From Magnolia sinica (taxonomy: Eukaryota; Streptophyta; Magnoliopsida; Magnoliales; Magnoliaceae), in the NCBI RefSeq assembly GCF_029962835.1, contig NC_080582.1:76690177-76754176 (forward strand): 64,000 bases of DNA. Reading direction: 5' to 3'. Shown here piece after piece: positions 2,390 to 64,000 of the stretch. Both the position numbers and the translations under genes were made by a program. Below the pieces are notes generated by a model. It did not search any database and was not told where the DNA came from. It worked only from the letters and a program-made list of their open reading frames with translations. How positions within the stretch are numbered: position 1 is the stretch's first letter; every line of letters begins with the position of its first letter.

Positions 2390-5153
2390 TGACCTAACCA
2401 CTCATATGTTTTTGAAGGATTTGGACATATGACTCGTCAACCCCAGCATCCAGAAATGAGACTATATATCGTTGGGCTAAGATCATCTCTCTTGATTGGG
2501 AATGCAAATCTGACCAGTACTTAGTGTGTTTAATAGATCATTGGTGGATTGTCTTTTAAGTAATATTGACATTTGTTGTGATCCTGATATTTGGAATTTT
2601 ATTGTTAGGTTCATACCTTCCAACTTCTCAATTTTCTTAACAATAGCTACTCATAGGCATAGTTGATGATGGTAATGTTGATGCAAAGAGAGTTGTTTGT
2701 GATCTCAGCACAATTGCAAAATTTCTGAGGTCCTCATGGAAAAAAAAATAATAATAAATCTTCCATTCAGTTGCTATCTCTTCGATCTGTTGGTTTCTTC
2801 CCCTGAACTTGTCCTTCACATGCTCCAATGTGACTGCAGTGTCTTGGATTTGAAGTGCAGTCCTATGGATTTGATTTTTGTCCCTGCAGCTGCATCTACA
2901 AGGTATTTTTAATTTTATTTTAAAAAAAAAAAATCTTTTTGATAACAATGCTATTTGCATGTTCCCTTGTGCATAGAAGTTGGTTCGCTGTGCACGGACT
3001 AATTAAAATGATTATAAAAAAATTCTTTCCCAACTTGCTATTCACTTCTTTGCATGATGAGAGAGTCATTCTTCTTCATAAGCACAAACAAATGTTACTT
3101 TTGCACAAACTTATTAATGGGATCTCTAATTTATATTAATTGATTGATCAATGACAAAGACCTCTATCGCTTTTGAAAAATATGCAACTAAGAACTTTAT
3201 TGATGCAAAAAAATAGAAAGATAACTTTTTTGTTTACATACCAATTTATATATGTAGCATATGATTTGGCTACGAAGGATATTCCCTCCAAGATGCTCTA
3301 CTCATTGAGATATAAACCAAATGACAGCATCTAGAAGTAGATTTCCACAGTCCTTCAGTTATTCGACTCTAGAATCTAGAGATAGCTCCTACTAATGCTC
3401 TAGGGATAGCCAAAACACGAGCTAGATGCAACTCATATGCAAAATATATATCTATAAATTTTCTAGTTTTCCTGCCTATATTCAAATCATGTAATTGTAT
3501 CATATTGTAGGCATGGTTCAAGTAATGTTGACAAAATGGGATTTGCTTCGTTGCCTGTTTGGAATATGCAGACATGGAAGGCTATGGTGTATGTGGCCCC
3601 CTACTAACTTGTACTATTCAGATATTGTAATTTGGATCTTAGCAGCCTCTGCAACTGATGGGATGATATTCATATGTTTGGTATCCTTGTATATTGGCCT
3701 CCATTCATTTATTAATGATATTTGTACTGATATACAATTTAGTTTCATATTATTTCATTGACTATGACCTAAGTAATGCTTTCCAATCTTAACGTGCATT
3801 TTATGATTCCCTATTTCAAATTGAGCGTCTACTTCAAGGTGACCATTTCATATTGAACCAGAAACAACAACTTTGATACCTGAGCTAGCTGCACTCCAAA
3901 ATCTAGTTTTTATTTCTTGTTTGGGAATTACCTTCTTTTTTTTTTCCTCGTCTGCTTTTTCTGCAGCTGAACCTCAACCAGAAGTATGTAACTAAATATT
4001 GATTTATGGTTGGTTTTGGCTCCTTATTTGGGCTTCTAGATCTTACTTACACCATTCACTTGTATCAGTTCCCAACTACTTGACTAGATGCGAGTATCCA
4101 TACATCTTCATTTTATTGGTCTTTATAGTAAAAATGAAATTATGGATTGGTGTTGGTCCACTGGTTCAATCCTTTCCTTATTTTAATTCGATTTTCTGTG
4201 GAATACTTCACAAGCCTGTTCATTTCTCTAGATTTGGACTTTGGAGTGCATCCTCATTTCTTTCTATAAATCATGCTTCTATGGAACGAAATTTTTTCTT
4301 TAAATGCTATAGATGGTGAAACTTTAGCTTTTTTGCAGTAGTAGTAGTAGTCTCATCATGCTACTACCTTTTTGCCTTTAATAAATGAAGCTTTGTTGTT
4401 CAATCTCTTGTGATGCAAGTGCAATGGAATGATGAATTTCACCTGATGGATCTGAAAAACAATTTGTTGATTGTTACTTCTATTTCAATGATGGCTTTAG
4501 AATTCATATATGGAGACTTCAGTTACTCTACTATTCCTATGATATATGCATATATCTGAGTTGAGTTCTTCAAATATGCATATTCGTAATAACCATTCTC
4601 AACATTTATAGTTCTATTTGTTGACTCCGAATGGAGTAATACATCTATGGATTTTTTTTCTAAGCAAGACATTAAGATGCATGATAGGTTTGTTGTTTGA
4701 TACTGTTATTTTCTTGAAAGATTCAGGATTTTTTTAATAGACAATGGGTGCAATCTTAATAGACAAAATTGGAAGAAGGCTTCTTTTATAGAAAAAGGGA
4801 AGAAAAATCTATCCACATATTTATATAAAATAAAAATAAAAATTCCATAGCTATTCTCCCCCATCTGCTAGTTACAGATATTTATTGGTTCCTTTTATTT
4901 TATTTCAAATTTGTTTTGGTTATTTTATTTTGTTTTGTAAACTTTTGTCTCTGCATTGGTGACTGAAGGTGGTGCATTTGTAGTGAAACATGGTAACCAG
5001 AGGGGGGTTTTGCTGCTTCATATGGGGATGGATATGGATTTCATTCGGTATGGCTGTTTTTGCAAGAAATATTTATGATTGGAAATTTAATTTTAGATAG
5101 TGTAACTTATGAGTATACATACTGTTTTATTAGCTGACCTCTACGCACGGCAG
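2390..5153. other. Non-coding, possibly further captured intron/exon debris
   Basis: No convincing gene. Short exon-like peptides can be read (for example VDKMGFASLPVWNMQTWKAM on the plus strand near 3530-3590), but I cannot assign them. AT-rich composition with T-runs before AG resembles plant intron sequence, in keeping with a captured genomic segment. Confidence 0.35.
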
Positions 5154-5815
5154 GGTGGTGACAAAGGTCCTTTATATGGCATGGGTTCTGGTTCTTAGGG
5201 TGCATTTAAGAAGTCTCACCTCGGGCGTCGCTGAAAGCCGTTGCTTTTTTTTTCCTCCTGCTTTTCCTTGTGTCTCAATCTGTAAATTTTTTGTCCATTA
5301 TGTAACCTTTCATTCTCAAGATACCTGTAAATGGGACTGGTTGTAAATGATTTAGAGGTTGTGTTTGAATGCTAATTTAAGCCCGTAAAGGTCTTCTGAC
5401 TAGAAGATTTAGCCTAGCAGAATTTTTAATTGTTTCTTTTCTTTTCTTTTACATTGTTAGGCATTGACCGATATTCATAGAGGTCTTGATTACATACCTT
5501 GTTCAGAATTTTAATTTTCAATTTTATAAGGTTTTCTGCAAAATTTTAATTTTCAATTTATAGCTTTTGTTTCTTTGACGGAGGTCTTGATTACATAAAT
5601 TCAAGTATGATACACAGAAAATGAAAGGTCTTGCTTACTTTCATTTCTTTATCATATATTTTTTTTTCTCTTCTTGTTGTGTGTTTTATTATTCTTTTCA
5701 TTGCCTATATCAGGTGGAACGCACTGTTACTTACAATGAGCATAGGCCGAGAAAACCTCCCCCGAATTTGCCATCTCTACTTTTAGATGGACAAATAGTT
5801 TACATTGGCATGCCT
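5154..5815 (+). pseudogene. ClpR-type plastid Clp protease subunit fragment (two exon-like pieces)
   Basis: The exon at 5714-5815, flanked by CAG and GTAAGT, reads ERTVTYNEHRPRKPPPNLPS then LLLDGQIVYIGMP. This is the N-terminal junction typical of the catalytically inactive chloroplast ClpR proteins (PPPNLPSLLLxGRIVYIGMP); the ERTVTYNEHRP lead-in is most like ClpR4 as I remember it. A weaker upstream piece at 5154-5232 reads GGDKGPLYGMGSGS, then a TAG stop (5196-5198) and GAFKKSHLGRR, and may be the preceding exon. The following exons (VPAVTELVVAELMYL...) are not visible. The internal stop and missing body make it a captured fragment. ClpR identity is firm; the paralogue is tentative. Confidence 0.7.
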
Positions 5816-8136: not shown

Positions 8137-10008
8137 TCAATTCAAAATATATAGTAATACTGTGGGGGAGAAAAACATACAAACAAACCACATCAACCAT
8201 CTTTTCCTCTTCATGCAAACTGGCACACGCGATATCGACCCACCTATATGTGGATTTCCGAGGAACGAGAGATAGGTGAAGTTTGCGAACCTTCCGCTCG
8301 TGGGTATCGGTCCATTGAAATCATTATATGAGAGATTCAGCCTATCAAAACTAACAGAACCCCCAAGCCCAACCGGAATCTCTCCAGATAATGAATTGTA
8401 GGAGACGTCGAGTGATTTGAGGTTCCGAAGCAATCCTAACGTGCCGGGAAGCTTCCCTTCGAGCAAATTATGAGAGAAATTGATCATGCAAGCGGAGATG
8501 CAGCCCTCTAGCTGAGGGAATATGATGCCATGGAAATAGTTTGACGATAGATCAATCTCCTGGACTGCTTCCATCTTGCTAAGCTCTAATGGCAGTGGCC
8601 CATTTATAAGATTGTGTGAAAGATTCAAGAAAATTCCCATATGGGTTAGTCCAAATATTTCTTTAGGAATTGCTGTTAATCTATTGAAAGATACATCCAA
8701 CCTGTTTAAGGACTCGCACCTTCCTATAGAAGATGAGATTCCAGAAAGCTCGTTTTCTTGAAGAAAAAGATCACTGAGGAAGATAAGGTTTCCCAGACTA
8801 CCCGGGACTTCGCCCGATAATCTATTTTTTGATAAATCAAGCTGATTCAACAGATTAATCTGTCCGATTGATGGCGGAATTGGGCCGATCAGCAAATTGT
8901 TGGATAAGATTAGCCATTGCAGGTTCTGCAATCGGCCTATCTCATCTGGGATCTTCCCATTGAGGAGGTTACATGATAAGTTGAGCACCGTGAGATTGGA
9001 GTGGTTGACTATGGTGGGCGGGATCGACCCGAATATCCGGTTGTGTTGGAGATGTATGCTTGATAAGTAGATCCCGAGCTGATCGATGGTGGTCGGCAAT
9101 TGGCCTCCAAGGCCCATTCCCGCCAATTCTATGGCCTGTAGGTGAGTGCAGTTGGAAAGGGCTTTGAAGAACGGGGCAAGATTGGTGTTGTGATCATGGC
9201 TCGTGAAAAGGTTATTTGACAGGAGGAGGAGTTCGAGGAGTTGCAATCTGCTGACGGTTTCGGAGGGCAGTTCACCGGAAAGTCTGTTGTTCTCCACATC
9301 CAAGCATTTCAAAATGGTGCAATTTGAGAGCGATGGAGGGAGTTTCCCACTCAAATTATTTGAATATAGCTGGAGGAACATTAGGTCGGAGAGATGGTTT
9401 CCCATCTCTGGTGGGATTTCTCCGTGGAGGGCGTTCTCAGAGAAATCTATGTAAACTAATGATGTGCAATTGTACAAGATCGATGAGGGGATGGTACCTG
9501 TCAGACGGTTTACGTTGAGGTCTAGATAAAAGAGTTCAGAAAGGAGGGAGAGTGAATCAGGGATCAGACCGTGGAGGAGGTTCCCGAAGAGGTTGAGTTC
9601 GTTGAGGCGCCATAGGGAGCCCAGTTCTGGAGGTATGGGCCCCACGAGGTTGTTTTCAGATAGGTCTAGTAAGAGGAGCCCAGTGAGATTGGCGAGGAAT
9701 GGAGAAAGCGGGCCGTGAATGCCGCTACGGTTGAGTAGGAGTTGCACCACACGTTGGTGCTGATGGTTGCACACCACACCTGTGAAGTTGCAGACATTGG
9801 ATGAATTTTGCCAGTCTGCAAGAATGGATTGAGAGTCTTGGGTCATGGTGTCCTTGAAGGCTAGGAGAGCTGCTTTGTCAGTGAGAATTGTAGGATGGTG
9901 ATGGTGATAGATCAATGGGTGGGCTGTCGTGTAGATTATAGGTAAAAAGAGTAGTAGACAGAATGTCTTCTTCATGGGTTGGATCTCCATGTCGATGGTG
10001 GCGATCAT
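8137..10008 (-). CDS. LRR receptor ectodomain protein lacking a kinase domain (At2g24130-like)
   Basis: An uninterrupted 623-codon frame. After the first ATG (10008) come alternative ATGs at codons 7 and 12. The third begins MKKTFCLLLFLPIIYTTAHP, a good signal peptide, so it may be the real start. Residues about 42-90 form an LRRNT_2 cap (DKAALLAFKDT...CNFTGVVC), followed by roughly 20 plant-type LRRs of about 24 residues (LxxLxLxxNxLxGxIPxxL) with an island-like NLAPFFKALSNCTHLQAIEL segment and many N-glycosylation sites. Wording throughout is closest to the LRR receptor kinase At2g24130. It ends with GNPHIGGSISRVPVCMKRKR and a short hydrophobic stretch WLMWFVCMFFSPTVLLYILN, then a stop. A full family member would continue with a transmembrane helix and kinase of about 300 residues. 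The C-terminal cap cysteine (usual LCGS) is altered to IGGS. It is either a truncated, decaying copy or a receptor-like protein acting as a decoy or co-receptor. The long open frame argues for a recent or still constrained loss. Confidence 0.8.
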   Translation of the reverse strand: MIATIDMEIQPMKKTFCLLLFLPIIYTTAHPLIYHHHHPTILTDKAALLAFKDTMTQDSQSILADWQNSSNVCNFTGVVCNHQHQRVVQLLLNRSGIHGPLSPFLANLTGLLLLDLSENNLVGPIPPELGSLWRLNELNLFGNLLHGLIPDSLSLLSELFYLDLNVNRLTGTIPSSILYNCTSLVYIDFSENALHGEIPPEMGNHLSDLMFLQLYSNNLSGKLPPSLSNCTILKCLDVENNRLSGELPSETVSRLQLLELLLLSNNLFTSHDHNTNLAPFFKALSNCTHLQAIELAGMGLGGQLPTTIDQLGIYLSSIHLQHNRIFGSIPPTIVNHSNLTVLNLSCNLLNGKIPDEIGRLQNLQWLILSNNLLIGPIPPSIGQINLLNQLDLSKNRLSGEVPGSLGNLIFLSDLFLQENELSGISSSIGRCESLNRLDVSFNRLTAIPKEIFGLTHMGIFLNLSHNLINGPLPLELSKMEAVQEIDLSSNYFHGIIFPQLEGCISACMINFSHNLLEGKLPGTLGLLRNLKSLDVSYNSLSGEIPVGLGGSVSFDRLNLSYNDFNGPIPTSGRFANFTYLSFLGNPHIGGSISRVPVCMKRKRWLMWFVCMFFSPTVLLYILN

Positions 10009-10120
10009 TTGTATGGAGAAAGCATCAGTGGCTATTTATCGCTTCCATGGCTGTTGCACCGAGTTTCCAGTGTAAGCGATCAGTGTAAGTTGTCTGATCT
10101 TCGTTGCGTCGAAGACCACT

Positions 10121-41449: not shown

Positions 41450-42420
41450 CTCGTTCTTACCGATTCTGATTATCGATCGATTTTGATTGTCGTGACCGAT
41501 TGTTGATTCCGATTGACATGACCATTTGTCGATTCTGATTATCGATCAATTTTGATTGTCATAACTAGTTGTTGATTCCGATTGACGTGACTGATTTACT
41601 GATTCTGATTATTGAACGATTCCGATTATCATGACCGATTGCCGATTCCGATTGTCAAGACCGATTTACCGATTTTGATTATTGATCGATTTCAATTGTC
41701 GTAACCGATTGTCGATTCCGATTGACATAACCGATTTGTCGATCCTGATTATCGATCGATTCCGATTGTCATGAACAGTTACAGATTTCAATTGACGTGA
41801 CTGATTTGCCGATTCTGATTATTGATCGATTTTGATTATCATGACTAATTGTCGATTCCGATTGTCAAGACCGATTTACCGATTCTGATTATCGATCGAT
41901 TTCGATTGTCATGACCGATTGTTGATTTTGATTGACATGACCGATTTGCCGATTCTGATTATCGATCGATTCTGATTGTCATGGCCAGTTGCCAATTTCG
42001 ATTGACGTGACTGATATGTCGATTCTGATTCCGATTATCGATCGATTCCGATTATCATGACCGATTACCGATTTCGATTGACATGACTGATTTGTAGATT
42101 CCGATATCAATCGATCCGATTGTCGTGACCGATTTGCCGATTCTGATTATCGATCGATTTCGATTGTCGATCCCGATTGTCATGGCCGATTGCTGATTCT
42201 GATTGACGTGATCGATTTACCGATTCTGATTATCGATCGATCCCGATTATCGTGGCCGATTGCCGATTTCGATTGATGTGACCGATTTGCCGACTCTGAT
42301 TATCGATCGATCCTGATTGTCGTGACCGATTGGCCAATTTTGATATTAATTGATCCGATTATCGTGACCGATTTGTCGATTCTGATTATTAATCGATCCC
42401 AATTATCGAGCCCGTTGTGA
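41450..42420. repeat. 70-bp minisatellite, about 14 copies, within an LTR
   Basis: The unit contains GATTCTGATTATCGATCGAT, CCGATTGTCATGACCGATTG and CCGATTCCGATTGACATGAC, with a period of about 70 bp built from a shorter C/TGATT-type repeat of 10-12 bp. Copies differ by 5-15%. The other two LTR copies have only a trace of this at the matching place (for example about 14708-14745), so it expanded in this lineage. Confidence 0.9.
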
Positions 42421-57381: not shown

Positions 57382-59160
57382 AGAACCCCTGCCTAGAGCA
57401 ATCCCGTCCAAGGCGGGGCGGCTTCAGGCATTGGATTGTGGATATTTATCAAGGTCGTTGATGGTATAGAGGTTGACGTGGGCCAATATTTTGAATTGTT
57501 CACAATAGGCCTATTAAAATTTTTGATTTAGCATGGTCCAGAAGCCCATTAACAGCTCTAACATTTATTAAACAGTTAAAATGAAAATTGTGACTATAGT
57601 CATATTTCACCAAACATGTTAATAGATAAAAAGTTATAATAAGTCTGAATTTGAGACTGTGACTCACTAATATTAGGTTTTATACTTTGGCAGGTTGAAT
57701 TGGAGTTAATGTAGGCAATGTGTATCCTAGCTATCCATCATAAGGATACCACTATTCAGGTTCCCTACCTAAGAATCGAGTTGATTCACTAGTCGGGTGG
57801 GCCACAATTAAAAGAATAATTGTAGGGTTGTTATTAAAATAAATAAATAAAAACAGTAGTAGTTTTCTAACCTATGTACACTGCTCTGTTTGTTTTTAAT
57901 TATGTGGGCATGCCAAAATTGATACAATGGATCCGATTCGCTAAAATAATTAGATACATCCACTATAAATGTATATGACTAAAATTTAAGAAGATCAGTC
58001 ACTTAATCACTTACATAAGTTTATAATGATCAAGCGATAATCGGAGGGTGGGGTTCTTTTTCTAAAGGCAGATTATTTTGTGCCTTTAAAAAAATAACTT
58101 CTAATCTACCAATGCAAAAAAAAAAACTCGCAATCAGTCACAGAGAGCAATTTTAAGAATGCTTCTCTTGAAAAAACTGCTTGACATTGGATAAAGAAAA
58201 AATCCAGTGTATGAGTGTAAACTTTGTTTGCAACTAAAGATTGTAGCTAAGGATCACTGCTACTTGATGACTCCTAGGATAAGTTAAAATGAAGTAAATT
58301 GATAGATAGGTTTGTTTGTTAAGTTGATGATTTGTTGGATCCTTTCTTCCATCGCATCCATATGTTATTCATAAAGCCTTGTTGCAGCTTGCTCTTCTAG
58401 ACCTTTCTTTCATTACTGCAATGATTATAGTAGTCAAAAATTCTTTCTTGATCATTCTCTTTTATTACATTTTTTCTCAAGAGCGTCTCTCTATATCCTT
58501 CTTTTTATTACACTTCTTCTTTCTAACTATTCCTCTTACAAATGCCCCTTGGCTGCTTGCTTTACCTTTGTCGACCAATATTTTATTTTAGTTACCCTCA
58601 ATCGCATTTATATCTTAAACAGTTCAACCTACTTTTTGTATGTTGACCGCAACATTCTATCAATCTCTTATTGACGTGTAGAATTAAAATTACGCCAACT
58701 ATAAACCCACAAAAAGTGCTCCAAATCTTTGAAGATCTTTTTATCCACTTCATATTTATCATACAATGCCACATGTCACTTTCCTATTTGCTTCCCTATG
58801 ATTGCTTGAAATAGGGTACAACAACCTAATACCTTTATTTTTTTATACTAACATCTAGATAATGAGGTCCACTTAATGGATGGCTTAGATAACTTGTCTA
58901 CTGTCATACTTGCATACGTGGTAGTGTGTACAGTAGCTTGGTCGTCCGCTTATATGGGCTTAGCCAAGCTCACTCTAATACTGTTGAGGGTCAAATATTG
59001 CATATTAAACCCTAGTTATTGCCTGGATTTACGAGCATAGTACTATTTAACAACTCAATTTAATCGTGTTTGTGGTGCAAGGTGAATTTAAGAAGTCTGG
59101 TCTGAAAATGATGCTAAAGGCATGGATTTAATGCACAGAGTCACCAAGGTAAGGGATGGA
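57382..59160. other. AT-rich intergenic DNA without recognised features
   Basis: I see no gene, RNA or clear repeat. The short frame at 58379-58591 is AT-rich and hydrophobic by composition only. Confidence 0.45.
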
Positions 59161-59164
59161 CCTT

Positions 59165-62100
59165 AGGAGACCAAGATCGACAGATTTGCATGCCAGGGAT
59201 CCAAGAAAATTGAGAAACTGAAGCTCAAGTGGCCCGAAATTGGTCCAGAATGCAAGATCACAGGGTTCCCATCATCTGCTCGGATCAAAACTTCATACAT
59301 GGCCTGAGGACCATAAATGAACCGTACACGTCGAATCTTAGCTCCCAGATCCCTGTGGAAGTGGGTAAACTGATAGATCATCCTATAAACCGTTGATTCG
59401 GGGCTCGCATGATATTTAGGTATGCTTCAAAATTGGTCTAAGCATCTTAAATGATGTGACAAAATGAATGGACAGAGCGAATTTTACGAATACATCACAG
59501 TGGGCCCTACACCAATGCAAGTGTGCACATGGTGTGTGCACGGTTGAATACACCGAACTGGAGAAATCCGGTCAAAACACACTGACCAAAGATTTTTTTA
59601 AAAACTTTCTAAAACCACCAATGGACGAACGTCCGACCGTCGGTTCTTGCCAATGGGCCCCACTATTCACTCATTTCGATGATCCAGACCATCCATGGTG
59701 TCCGTATGTGGGCTTTAACCCATGTCAAGGTCACCTTTTCGTCCCATGTGCACACAAACACATCTTCAACCAACCAACACAGGACGTACAGTGGAATGAA
59801 ATATCTCATGGGCTTCATCAACAGCGGGTTAAAACCAGCCATTTCCAATTGGTGTTTTGAGGAGATTGCAATGGACGGGGTGGATTTCCAAGTTGACACT
59901 GATTATGGGCCCCACCGACTTTCACAGCGTCGACGCAAAAGCTGAGCTTGCGATTTTCCTTTGTGAGCCACCATCATGATGCGATGTTTTGATCCAGGCC
60001 CTCTATTAGAATTCCACAGGTCAACTGGCCAAGGCCTAGGTGTCAAGTTTCCAAGAAACAGTGAGGATATGAATTCAACCATTCAAACGGTGGACAGACG
60101 GTGGAAAGATTTGATTCGATGGACCACACTAAACGCAAATCGACAGATTTGCACGCCAAAGATTCAAGAAAATCGAGAAATTGAAGCTCAAGTGGCCTGA
60201 AAAGTGTCCAGAATGCAAGATCATAGGGTTCCCACCATCTGATCAGTTCAAAACTTCATACGTGGCCTGAGGACTATAAAGTAACGTACACGTCAAATTT
60301 CAGCCATTGGATCCCTCTGGAAGTGGCCCAACAGATAGATCAGCCCCTTTAATCATTATGTGGGGCCCGCCTGATATTTGGATATGCTTCAAAAATTGGT
60401 CTAGACAGTCTAAATGATATAACAGAATAGATGGACGGAACGGATTTTTCACGAACATCACGATGAACCCACATGTACACTGCATGTACATGGGGTACAT
60501 GTGCACGAGAAGTGCACCGGACGGAGAGTCCGGTCAAACCATGGACTGACCCGAAGTCCGTTTTTCTTTAAGAAACAGCGTCCGACGCTGCTTTCGCCGG
60601 GAGATCGTTGTGGGCCCCACTCGCTCCTCAGTTCGATGATCCAAACCGTCCACTTGTCGTAGGAGATGGCCAAGAACAACGCCTAGGTGTCCTTTTTCTA
60701 CCATGCAAGCAGCTTCACACTCCCAGCCGTTCAAACGCAAGATGAACGGTGTAACGCCAGTTCTTGTGGGCCGCAACGAACTCAAACCGGTCTCGTCCGT
60801 CCCCAACGGTTTTTTGACGTGATTCGAATGGACGGAGTGGATTTTCGACTCGGCCTCAATAAATGGGTCATCGCATGAACAGAGTCGACTTGCGGCAACT
60901 CTGTTCGCAACAGGAAGCTGCGGTCGATCCAGGTGGGCCATCATCGCTGATCAAAACAGTGATCCGGACCGTCTATTGTGTAGAGGGGCCAAAACCGTCC
61001 GTAGGGACGTTATCTATTTGGAAAGAATGTGAGGGAAGTGGAAGTCTCTTTCCTCCGTTTTCTTGGCTGCGGAAACGCCTACGCAGCGGCAGTGTTGTGT
61101 AAGGAGTCTTCCGGCTCGTGAAACTTCCGCAGGGAGTGCGGAAATCTTTCCCCGACGACAGCTCTATAAAGAGGTTGGCTGCCGGCAGCGTGTGAGGGGA
61201 GAAAAAGGAAGAGCAGGGTTGCGGTTTTGGCTTTGAAGAAAGAGGAGATCGTGTGGAGCTTGGACGACTGCACGAGTTCACGTCAGGGAGCATTGGAAGA
61301 AAAGCAGGGGCAACCGTGGGACTGGCTAGTAATGGGGCTGCTCGTTTTGAAGGAATGAAGGAAGAAAGTAAGAGACGTGAAGACGTGATTTTTTTTCTCT
61401 GCTGTAGTGGACGTGGCTGGAGAGAGAAACCTGGTTCTCATTCTATTCTTTCTCTTTTTATTTCTAAGTTCAGCCACATCATGCCCATGTGTGGCTAAAC
61501 CTCTTAGCTAGGGCTAAGAGGTGAAGCTTGTAGTCTGATGGGAGAAACTTTGCTTGTGCCTATTGTTTAGATGGACTGATATTGATTTTTGTTCAAATTA
61601 AAAAGAATACTTTCAGTTATTTTTAAGGGTTTGTTGTGACTGAAATTACAATGGATCTGCGATGATTTTGAGTATTTCTTTTTCCTTTTGATGTTCATGA
61701 CGTCAGGAAGCCCTGTTGTTCACCATAGTCCCCTGGGCATGGTCGGATGGCGGAATCCTTCCTAACTTCCATGCATTGTTGATTGGTTGGTAATTAGTCT
61801 AATTCTGTTGTTTGCTCTGTCTCCTGGGCATGGTTTGATGATGGAATCCATTTTAATTCATATACCTTTCATCTCTTGAAAACTATATCAAAGGAAGTCT
61901 AGTTGATTTCCATGATTTCCGAAGCAGGCATAAGATCTCCCTGATCTCTACAAGTGGATCCTCTGAATCCCTAGTTTCCTTCCTCTGAATTCCTTAAAGT
62001 TTTAGATAATTATTCCACAATTATTCCTTAAAATTCTATTTGGTTAGATCACATCTTAGTCTAGTTCTAGTTCTACTTGGTTTCAGATAACGTACAGGTA

Positions 62101-62175
62101 TCAGTCCCTGTGGATTCGACCTCGGTCTTACCGAGTTTATTATTACATCACAACCCTATACTTGGGGAGTGAACA
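59165..62175 (+). mobile_element. LTR-like region of a second retrotransposon family (first unit)
   Basis: Ends TATACTTGGGGAGTGAACA at 62175, like the next unit at 63609. A CTATAAAGAGG box lies at about 61163-61173 and is followed by the shared segment GCTAAACCTCTTAGCTAGGG (about 61493) to the end. Within the upstream part two stretches are alike (59165-59480 and 60146-60460, both with GACAGATTTGCA(C/T)GCC and CTGATATTTGGATATGCTTC-type wording). This suggests nested or duplicated U3 segments, so the left border is uncertain. No gag or pol is present. Confidence 0.6.
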
Positions 62176-63609
62176 GTGGGCCACCATCATGATGTGATGT
62201 TTGATTCGGACCGTCTATTAGAATTCTACGGGTCAACTAGCCAAGGCCTAGGTGTCAAGTTTCCAAGAAACAGTGAGGATATGATTTCAGCCGTTCAAAC
62301 GGTGGATAGACAGTGGAAAGATTTGATTCGATGGACCACACTAAACACAAGCAAAAACACTCCTTCTCGACTAAAATTCTGAGAGGAATTCAATGGACTG
62401 GTCAGATTTCTCGTCTGACATCAATCCTGGGCCCACCGACTTCAACAGCGTAAGGATTACGCATTACGCGCGTCCGAATACCCAGCCGATCCGAGCGGTT
62501 TTACAGTCGTGGTTAGGATCATTCCGACCATCTGGACCATCCAAATTTCTCTCAACGTGGGACTGACCATAGCCAAGACGACTGAATGTCTCGGATCTCG
62601 CATGTGCGGCCGCGATTTCGATTCCAAAACGCAAGTTGGTGATGCGTATCTGTTACTGCGTAAAGAAAATGCCTGCGTAAAGCTTCAGCCGCCGACCTTT
62701 TTTACTGTTTAAAAGGGAGAGGGCTAAGACGTGCAAGGGGTTGATCTAAATCTGGGACGTGGAGTGCAGTCGTGGAAGCGAATTTTGAAGCCGGTTTCCA
62801 GGAGTTCTTTTCTTCCTTTTTCTTTTTCTTTTTGTTTAATTCTTTCCTTTCATGTTTTTTTCCTTGATTTTAGCATGACCATGCTAGGCTAAACCTCTTA
62901 GCTAGGGCTAAGAGGTGAAGCTTGTGGCGTGATGGGTAGTGTTCAACTGGTTTAATTCATGTTATGAACTGATTTGATTCTGGTTTGATTATTAAGGAAT
63001 GCCTTTAGTTGTTAATGGTTTGTTGTGACTGAAATTACAATAGATCTGCGATGGCTTGAGTATTTCCTTTTTCCTCTCTGTGATTATGAAGTCAGGAAGC
63101 TCTGTTGTTTATTATTGTCTCCTGGGCATGGTTAGATGACGGCACCCTTCCTACCATTCATACATCACTCAGATTGACCGTGAATTGGTTTAATTCTATT
63201 GTTTGCTTTGTCTCATGGGCATGGTTTTGTGATGGAATCCATTCTAATTTACACCTATCTAATCTCTTAAAAACTAGATTAAATGAAGTTCAGAATTAAT
63301 TTTCAGGTTATAACTTCCAACTGGATGAAGATGGGACTCAAAGTCCGATTGACTTCATGAATCGACCATAGATCTCCCTGATCTCTACAAGTGGATCCTC
63401 TGAATCCCTAGTTTCTTCCTCTGAATTCCTTAAGTTTTAGATTAGTATTTCACTATTATTCCTCAAAATCATTCGATTTAGATTTCATCTTAATCTAGTT
63501 CTAGTTCTAGTGAATTTTAGATTATGTTCAGGTTTCAGTCCCTTGGGATTCGACCTCGGTCTCACCAAGTTTATTACTACATCACAACCCTATACTTGGG
63601 GAGTGAACA
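62176..63609 (+). mobile_element. LTR of the same family (second unit), ending at a tRNA-Asp primer-binding site
   Basis: Its first part (about 62168-62380) matches 59967-60145 (GCCAAGGCCTAGGTGTCAAG, GATTTGATTCGATGGACCAC). It has a TTTAAAAG box near 62707, and its last 720 bp (62889-63609) match 61493-62175. It ends GAGTGAACA, then six bases, then TGGCGCCGTTGCCGGGGA, the primer-binding site complementary to tRNA-Asp used by several plant gypsy lineages (Athila/Tat as I recall). Confidence 0.75.
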
Positions 63610-64000
63610 AGTTTTTGGCGCCGTTGCCGGGGATTGAACCCGGGTCACCCGCGTGACAGGCGAGAATACTCACCACTATACTACAACGGCGCCAAAAACT
63701 TGTTCACTCCCCAAGTATAGGGTTGTGATGTAGTAATAAACTCGATGAGACCGAGGTCGAATCCCAAGGGACTGAAACTTGTACGTAGTCTGAAACTACT
63801 AGAACTATAACTAGATTAAGATGAAATCTAAATCGAATGAATTTAAGGGAATAATGATGAAATATTAATTTAAAACTTAAAGAAATCAGAGGTAGGAAAC
63901 TAGGGTGCCAAGGATCCACTTGTAGCAATTGGGAAGTTACCTTACACTGATTCAAGGACACAACTGGAATCAGAGTCCTATCTTATCCAGTTGGTAAGAA
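63300..64000. repeat. Large inverted repeat of LTR ends around a tRNA-Asp sequence
   Basis: The left arm (to 63626) is the LTR end plus TGGCGCCGTTG. The right arm (from 63684) is its reverse complement and runs off the window. The inner 59 bp of each arm (63568-63626) are identical. Over 95 bp (63532-63626) there are two mismatches; divergence and indels increase outward. The 57 bases between the arms are the rest of a tRNA-Asp. The junction on each side falls in the tRNA acceptor stem. Confidence 0.92.
63619..63690 (-). tRNA. tRNA-Asp (GTC) sequence, probably a reverse-transcribed primer copy
   Basis: The minus strand gives a 72-nt cloverleaf: acceptor stem GCCGTTG paired with CAACGGC and discriminator G, D-arm TAGTATAGTGGTGAG (A box), anticodon stem-loop CTCGCCTGTCACGCGGG with anticodon GTC (one G-T wobble), T-arm CCCGGGTTCAATCCCCGG (B box). 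It is directly followed by an encoded CCA (63616-63618), which nuclear tRNA genes lack, and there is no T-run terminator on the minus strand. It lies exactly between two inverted LTR-plus-primer-binding-site ends. All this points to a copy of the retrotransposon's primer tRNA rather than an ordinary gene. The internal promoter boxes look intact, so transcription cannot be excluded. Confidence 0.85.

Follow-up and report, generated by a model that had tools for sequence, protein, structure and literature searches.

How a complete tRNA came to stand between two oppositely oriented LTRs is the question raised by a locus near the right end of the window, the 64,000-nucleotide stretch of Magnolia sinica DNA analysed here (C10:76690177-76754176). 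An initial annotation had described an LTR end, six bases, a primer-binding site (PBS), an antisense tRNA-Asp with CCA and an inverted LTR end, and every part was confirmed on reading the sequence (Table 1). With TG..CA LTR ends, spacer and a tRNA-complementary PBS all present, the locus has the make-up of an LTR retrotransposon cDNA insertion; the tRNA copy (L052) departs from a nuclear tRNA gene, which has no encoded CCA and LTR-unrelated flanks. The most probable answer, at roughly four chances in five, is that the locus records, in fossil form, aberrant reverse transcription that a plant LTR retrotransposon carried out from a tRNA-Asp primer, with overrun of the primer, re-priming and, at the related locus on C12, a single integration.

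The junction in the window

Table 1. Coordinates of features at the window locus and at the related locus on C12
Feature	Position	Strand	Basis or remark
Left LTR, 5' part, starts TGTTGAGGGTCAAATATTGC	58982-60138	+	LTR start motif L031:159 = window 58982
Later insert in left LTR, fragment of another LTR copy	60139-62175	+	
Left LTR, 3' part, ends ..CTTGGGGAGTGAACA	62176-63609	+	subfamily 1, nearest sampled copy L026, 95%
Left LTR end ...GAGTGAACA	up to 63609	+	window sequence
Six-base spacer AGTTTT, LTR to PBS	63610-63615	+	window sequence
18-nt PBS TGGCGCCGTTGCCGGGGA, complement of tRNA-Asp 3' end with CCA	63616-63633	+	
Full-length tRNA-Asp(GUC) copy, encoded CCA	63616-63690	- (antisense)	sequence and tRNA comparison
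Putative re-priming junction TGGC + GCCGTTG	63684-63694	-	first 11 nt of PBS, into tRNA base 8
Inverted six-base spacer AAAACT	63695-63700	-	
Inverted LTR end, subfamily 2	63701-64000	-	93.6-93.9% to L011/L013 over 392 nt
C12 LTR1	L032:3864-4839		
C12 LTR2'	L032:4932-6264	inverted	
C12 PPT-like'	L032:6269	inverted	
C12 LTR3'	L073:407-1738	inverted	

The PBS register is exact on both sides of the tRNA, whose 5' end is followed by GCCA, AAAACT and TGTTCACTCCCC.., the beginning of the inverted LTR end. Arms at 63515-63626 and 63684-63795 are 94% complementary over 112 nt, within a wider palindrome (63317-63994) that is 80% complementary, and in the window the two arms have no internal region between them. 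Three bases of the tRNA copy differ from the native genes: 2 (T>C), 28 (C>T) and 56 (G>A), in 75-nt numbering.

The left side, which the initial annotation began at 63300, proved to be a much longer LTR that begins at about 58982, next to the 5-bp flank AATAC (58977-58981), and is interrupted by a later insert. The insert is bracketed by a 176-bp duplication (59963-60138 / 62176-62350, 91% identity), a length that far exceeds that of a normal target duplication. A hairpin-like motif, GCTAAACCTCTTAGCTAGGGCTAAGAGG, occurs in the window LTR at 61494-61527 and 62888-62921 and, with up to 6 mismatches, in six of the seven ten-kb loci scanned (L031-L037). Elsewhere in the window are a 632-aa receptor-like open frame with leucine-rich repeats and LRRNT_2 (8137-10035, minus strand) and a tandem array with a period of about 70 bp (41524-42414).

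tRNA-Asp copies in the host genome

A plant tRNA-Asp query against the host assembly (1.84 Gb, 127 contigs) gave 35 matches, all 35 candidates being scored, and these were sorted by reading their flanks into 16 gene-like and 19 cDNA-type copies. The gene-like matches comprise 11 that are identical, two at 99%, and L053, L066 and L071; the cDNA-type matches are L051, L052 (the window), the 12 loci L054-L065, L067, L068, L069, L070 and L072. All 13 native-type genes begin with GTCGTTG, the start given for plant tRNA-Asp in the initial annotation, and none encodes CCA; the GCC start of the window copy is therefore not inherited. The template for the window copy was mature tRNA with CCA added, since CCA is encoded there and absent from the 13 native-type genes.

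A recognised LTR end, judged by similarity, lies beside 15 of the 19 cDNA-type copies. The flank beyond CCA matches all 22 ordinary LTR ends in 11 of the 19 (L051, L052, L056, L057, L060, L063, L065, L067, L068, L070 and L072). The corresponding flanks of L059, L061 and L064 match one another, and that of L054 matches L061/L064, defining another LTR family, while the L055 flank matched 18 of the 22 ordinary LTR ends over 31 nt only. The flanks of L058 and L062 match only each other and are putative LTRs. L069 (C1:98352453) repeats the tRNA copy and upstream flank of L068 almost exactly, with no LTR end on the other side. Because one partner sequence is common to L061 and L064 and another to L068 and L069, the copies stand for no more than 17 independent events.

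The search of the host genome for LTR-flanked tRNA-Asp shows that the window is not unique: at three loci, namely the window, C12 (L056) and C14 (L054), the tRNA 5' end runs into an inverted LTR. In a text search of the searchable portions of published papers the string GTCGTTGTAGTATAGTGG was found in 14 papers, and GCCGTTGTAGTATAGTGG had no occurrence in those portions. Junction, read-through and LTR-PBS sequences had no match in viral contigs, and the PBS control was likewise without a match, so these scans carry no information.

Read-through of the mature primer and base 58

The stop of plus-strand synthesis at m1A58 of the primer tRNA is a textbook fidelity step, and misreading of this base would be expected to produce A58>T. 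Read-through of the primer, proposed in the initial annotation from the window, is upheld by the 19 cDNA-type copies: tRNA sequence extending past base 58, CCA and an adjoining LTR end are found together in 15 of the 19, the window among them. Nine copies reach the tRNA 5' end or come within 5 nt of it (L051, L052, L054, L056, L060, L062, L063, L068, L069), eight stop at tRNA bases 9-19 (L055, L057, L058, L059, L061, L064, L065, L067), and L070 and L072 stop at bases 25 and 36, respectively, in 75-nt numbering.

Substitutions in the cDNA-type copies are mostly C>T or G>A (50 of 59), an excess expected from the decay of methylated DNA. Three of the nine non-decay substitutions are A>T exactly at A58 (L055, L060, L067; 3 of the 17 copies covering that base), and the 397 cells at A or T in the tRNA copies contain one other change. 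The binomial probability of this excess is 1e-5, or 6e-4 with a pooled rate, the duplicates L061/L064 and L068/L069 being counted apart. The natural reading of A58>T would be misinsertion opposite a presumed m1A58, a modification that blocks reverse transcriptase according to an excerpt of PMC13191261. The window copy itself has A at base 58.

In 19 of 22 ordinary copies (L009-L030) ATTGA follows GGGG, beyond the 18-nt PBS, and adds four bases of tRNA complementarity with one mismatch, an arrangement that would suit a stop beyond A58 in ordinary elements. The base next to A58 is changed G>A in 5 of 17 fossil copies, for which either ATTGA or CpG decay may be the source.

Junctions in the acceptor stem

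The window junction reads CTACAACGGC joined to GCCAAAAACTTG, and that of C12 (L056) reads CTACAATGAT joined to GCCAAAAAAT, which, with two C>T decays allowed, equals native CTACAACGAC followed by GCCAAAA. Base 2 of the window copy is C in the tRNA sense, where the genes have T, a change of a kind that decay does not produce. A switch made with the last two tRNA bases still uncopied fits it, while at C12 the fit is with a full tRNA copy extended across an A-C mismatch. The switch within the acceptor stem suggested by the initial annotation thus agrees with native GTCGTTG in 13 of 13 genes, GCC in the window and a C12 junction that keeps the native base 2. At C14 (L054) the junction is CTACAAC joined to AAAAAACTTGG, lacking GGCGCC, and L063 has 9 nt of inverted PBS and spacer (GCGCCAAAA) before further sequence. 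In predicted minimum-energy DNA folds, the native tRNA copy leaves the acceptor stem open, whereas the changed version of the window closes it.

A search with the strict junction pattern, allowing up to 2 mismatches, gave three matches, at the window, at C12 and at one native gene whose flank fits by chance. Since a reversed-pattern control gave 2 matches, the pattern alone is no evidence; the evidence is the flanking inverted LTRs, and the exact junction is found at two loci only, the window and C12. For tRNA-iMet, 8 pattern matches in the host genome included none with the TGGT flank expected of a relay junction. Seven of these eight carry the flank TTGG. Among the best 40 of 173 tRNA-iMet candidates, 15 cover only tRNA bases 1-58, and these look like one dispersed family.

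A whole inverted double element on C12

The order of parts on C12 (L032 with L073, in the region 35,287,400-35,295,300) is copia RT-TTGCA, then LTR1-tRNA'-LTR2'-PPT-like'-internal'-PBS'-LTR3', then TTACA-copia RT. The copia RT frame resumes over the empty site (..GIDYDETFTPVA followed by RLESIRLF.. / ..GIDYDETFTPVA followed by RLESIRLFISIV..). The target duplication foreseen for the window was found at this sister locus and not at the window itself: TTGCA/TTACA are equal at four of five bases, with one mismatch. Taken together, the order, the resumed frame and the target duplication make the single insertion of one cDNA with two U3 ends most likely; C12 is probably one extrachromosomal DNA, U3 at both ends, inserted once, as read from a single locus whose duplication has one mismatch in five bases.

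The three C12 LTRs are nearly equidistant, with 71, 52 and 45 private differences for LTR1, LTR2 and LTR3, and 357 aligned columns are missing from LTR1. Derived sites shared against two other copies, counted over the first 509 nt, number one for LTR1/2, two for LTR1/3 and four for LTR2/3. Among the best 40 of 5663 candidates, family members are 92-93% identical to LTR1 in 39 of the 40 scored rows, the last row being LTR1 itself, and there are members as close to LTR1 as LTR2 and LTR3 are, or closer. Shared mutations do not separate cis from trans templates at C12.

Sequence to the right of the window

The inverted LTR does continue past 64000, but the arm touching the tRNA stops at about L031:5250, having run for 372 nt from the LTR end; neither a right end of the locus nor a target duplication was found in the sequence examined right of 64000. 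Termination of the arm at the 5' end of the transcript does not fit, R-U5 being about 845 nt (from a TATA-like box in L013, by eye) against an arm stop at 372 nt.

After the 372-nt arm come antisense internal sequence, PBS', a complete inverted LTR, PPT-like', a sense LTR fragment (9001-9684), an inverted LTR resembling the left one, and PPT-like' again. With the insert omitted, the left LTR aligns to this last, uninterrupted inverted LTR (L031:9685-L076:2195) at 93.9% over 2397 aligned bases, and the two are 2416 and 2412 bp long. Over the first 622 nt of the far-right LTR other family members are as close (92-95%), and no third LTR near it was found among the best 40 of 9582 candidates. It may be the original arm displaced by the later block, or a separate insertion. 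In a tree of 36 rows the LTR touching the tRNA clusters with L011/L013/L023/L034 (support 100/100) and the left LTR pairs with L026 inside a cluster that also takes in L018/L025 (support 99/96); an origin of the two window arms from two subfamilies needs caution, because the subfamily of the left arm reappears, inverted, 4.8 kb to the right.

The 4.8-kb block (L031:4878-9684) starts exactly at an LTR end and has a 206-bp inverted duplication (5044-5250 / 9480-9685, 96.6%). Its sense LTR fragment starts about 40 nt downstream of the equivalent of the TATA-like box, as judged by eye on L013.

Other outcomes of overrun

C14 (L054) is the third LTR-tRNA-inverted LTR structure and belongs to another LTR family. 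Measured against three other copies, its two arms have 14 substitutions and 21 gapped columns in common and 15 and 21 differences of their own, and the shared changes may reflect one source for both arms or a subfamily mark. L059 (C1) starts with an LTR and a tRNA copy that reaches base 17; next come the complement of the PPT-like stretch at its 3' end and antisense internal region, as if the enzyme had jumped onto a PPT RNA end; the tRNA/PPT-like join lies within a run of C common to both.

Sense internal sequence follows the tRNA copy in L057 (=L037) and L060 (=L035), both with the order 5' LTR-tRNA copy-sense internal-PPT-like-3' LTR, and L070 is also joined to sense internal sequence. The internal-region comparison of L057 and L060 was made for each partly against its own locus, and the pol frames of L035 run in the LTR sense. 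In L037 the tRNA copy lies inside a direct-type element with the target duplication ACGCC/ACGCC, and the flanks of L035 are only GCATA/ACGTA. At L067 (C8:43506169) the tRNA copy is joined to a direct LTR end through a 7-base homology, CTATACT, common to both, and at L051 a complete tRNA is joined to other sequence. The junctions described here belong to ten of the 19 cDNA-type copies: L051, L052, L054, L056, L057, L059, L060, L063, L067 and L070.

Proposed mechanism and alternatives

It is strongly supported that plus-strand strong-stop synthesis passed base 58, presumably m1A, and copied the primer tRNA to its 5' end, or to at most 2 nt short of it. The new DNA 3' end (..CAACGAC or ..CAACG) would be nearly identical to the tRNA 3' acceptor strand and, as the exact junctions at two loci suggest, may have annealed to the PBS (GCCGTTG) and been extended in place of the tRNA as primer. 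At C12 the extension would have copied the LTR, PPT, internal region, PBS and second LTR of what was presumably a genome-length template; the structure itself is seen there. The product, a linear U3-U3 DNA, would have been integrated once with a 5-bp target duplication, as C12 supports with its one mismatch in five. The template could be DNA of the strand itself, a sibling or another genome; the structure at C12 points to a template of genome length, and the adjacent arm of the window to a different genome. Re-priming on a genome-length template is the likelier course because C12 has a third LTR and because the LTR touching the window tRNA is of another subfamily. The evidence leans, with some reserve, towards a recurrent route, taken separately by three or more LTR families or subfamilies of this genome, in which a DNA copy of the primer tRNA primes a second minus-strand round and integrase accepts the resulting U3-U3 inverted double elements.

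Several observations count against overrun and re-priming as the best explanation. The window locus has no target duplication, and a mixed LTR/internal block of 4.8 kb follows its tRNA; the exact junction has as many loci as the pattern control had matches, with C14 lacking GGCGCC and L063 showing only 9 nt; the native tRNA copy leaves its acceptor stem open in the predicted fold; the single insertion is read from one locus; and no tRNA-iMet junction of the same kind was found.

The simple snap-back of the initial annotation, in which the read-through plus strong-stop strand would pair in cis with the PBS it carries and take its own LTR as template, predicts LTR-tRNA-LTR' and nothing further. 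The junction is exactly what such self-priming would give, and the C12 arms group together in the tree; yet the C12 arm continues through PPT-like', internal' and PBS' to LTR3' within one target duplication, where a strand started at the PPT would need a further switch, and the arm touching the window tRNA comes from another subfamily (100/100 versus 99/96). A product that ends at U3, with both arms copied from one strand, was not found at C12 or in the window; the C14 arms are compatible with one source. The unclosed stem of the native copy in the predicted fold also speaks against it. Pure cis snap-back is accordingly unlikely as a general account, and it keeps a minority share of the probability on the strength of the shared changes of the C14 arms, perhaps a subfamily mark. 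Less probable still is end joining, by which two linear cDNAs, one with an unremoved tRNA copy, would have been joined through microhomology before integration. Joining of retroviral cDNA ends is known and the junction offers five to seven bases of homology, but the partner end would need to carry spacer plus PBS, and we know of no finished cDNA ends that do; moreover, at C12 a native base that mismatches is retained where the tRNA copy ends, which fits primer extension and not flap trimming.

That two unrelated LTR elements came to lie by chance beside an ordinary tRNA-Asp gene, or that a later genomic inversion created the palindrome, is very improbable. The window region is heavily nested, with at least one later rearrangement; against this stand the encoded CCA, absent from the 13 native-type genes, a PBS register that is exact to the left and right of the tRNA, the occurrence of three loci whose flanks differ, and the single C12 target duplication that brackets the whole structure. 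A collapsed or folded palindrome of the assembly, judged from the assembly alone, is the most remote of these explanations: a fold-back artefact of one read is disfavoured because the window arms differ by 6-20%, and the C12 arms differ by 10-18%, the flanks are different and C12 has its target duplication.

Relation to known systems

No description of integrated LTR-tRNA-inverted LTR insertions was found in the literature searched, which comprised titles and abstract openings, with subscription journals thinly covered. The fossils would show the genomic outcome of a failed m1A58 stop, in base-58 changes, varied tRNA endpoints and apparent re-priming by the tRNA copy, and C12 suggests that integrase can insert DNA with two U3 ends. 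Some loci place an intact tRNA-Asp within palindromes, from which hairpin RNA might, speculatively, arise.

A domain search of the fossil locus L035, which belongs to the LTR family of the window element, found RVT_1, RT_RNaseH, Integrase_H2C2 and rve in sense order, and by this pol order (RT-RNase H before integrase) the element is classed as Ty3/gypsy type. Of the elements in PMC6317226, 6% use tRNA-Asp and 93.4% have 5-bp target duplications, according to an excerpt. The fossils resemble ordinary plant Ty3/gypsy insertions in their LTRs, spacer, PBS, PPT-like stretch, pol order (L035) and 5-bp target duplication (L037 and, with one mismatch, C12). C12 differs from them in having three LTRs, one of them inverted relative to the other two, with a full tRNA copy between, and in ending with U3 on both sides where an ordinary insertion ends with U3 and U5.

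In known cases of retroviral circles, tRNA bases left at the junction are short remnants, and the LTRs keep their direct order. Both there and in the fossils tRNA sequence stands at an LTR-LTR junction; in the fossils a complete tRNA lies between inverted LTRs. With unmodified tRNA, HIV-1 plus-strand synthesis passes A58 and reaches the tRNA 5' end, and the full-length read-through product is described as no active template, both in the excerpted part of PMC13191261. Plus-strand synthesis past A58 is common to the two systems; unlike the HIV-1 product, the one considered here apparently re-primed and was integrated. The mRNA 5' end of self-primed LTR retrotransposons primes their minus-strand synthesis. 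An excerpt of PMC6317226 gives 12% of LTR retrotransposons as predicted to be self-priming. In both cases the element's own nucleic acid serves as primer, which in the fossils described here would be a DNA copy of the tRNA.
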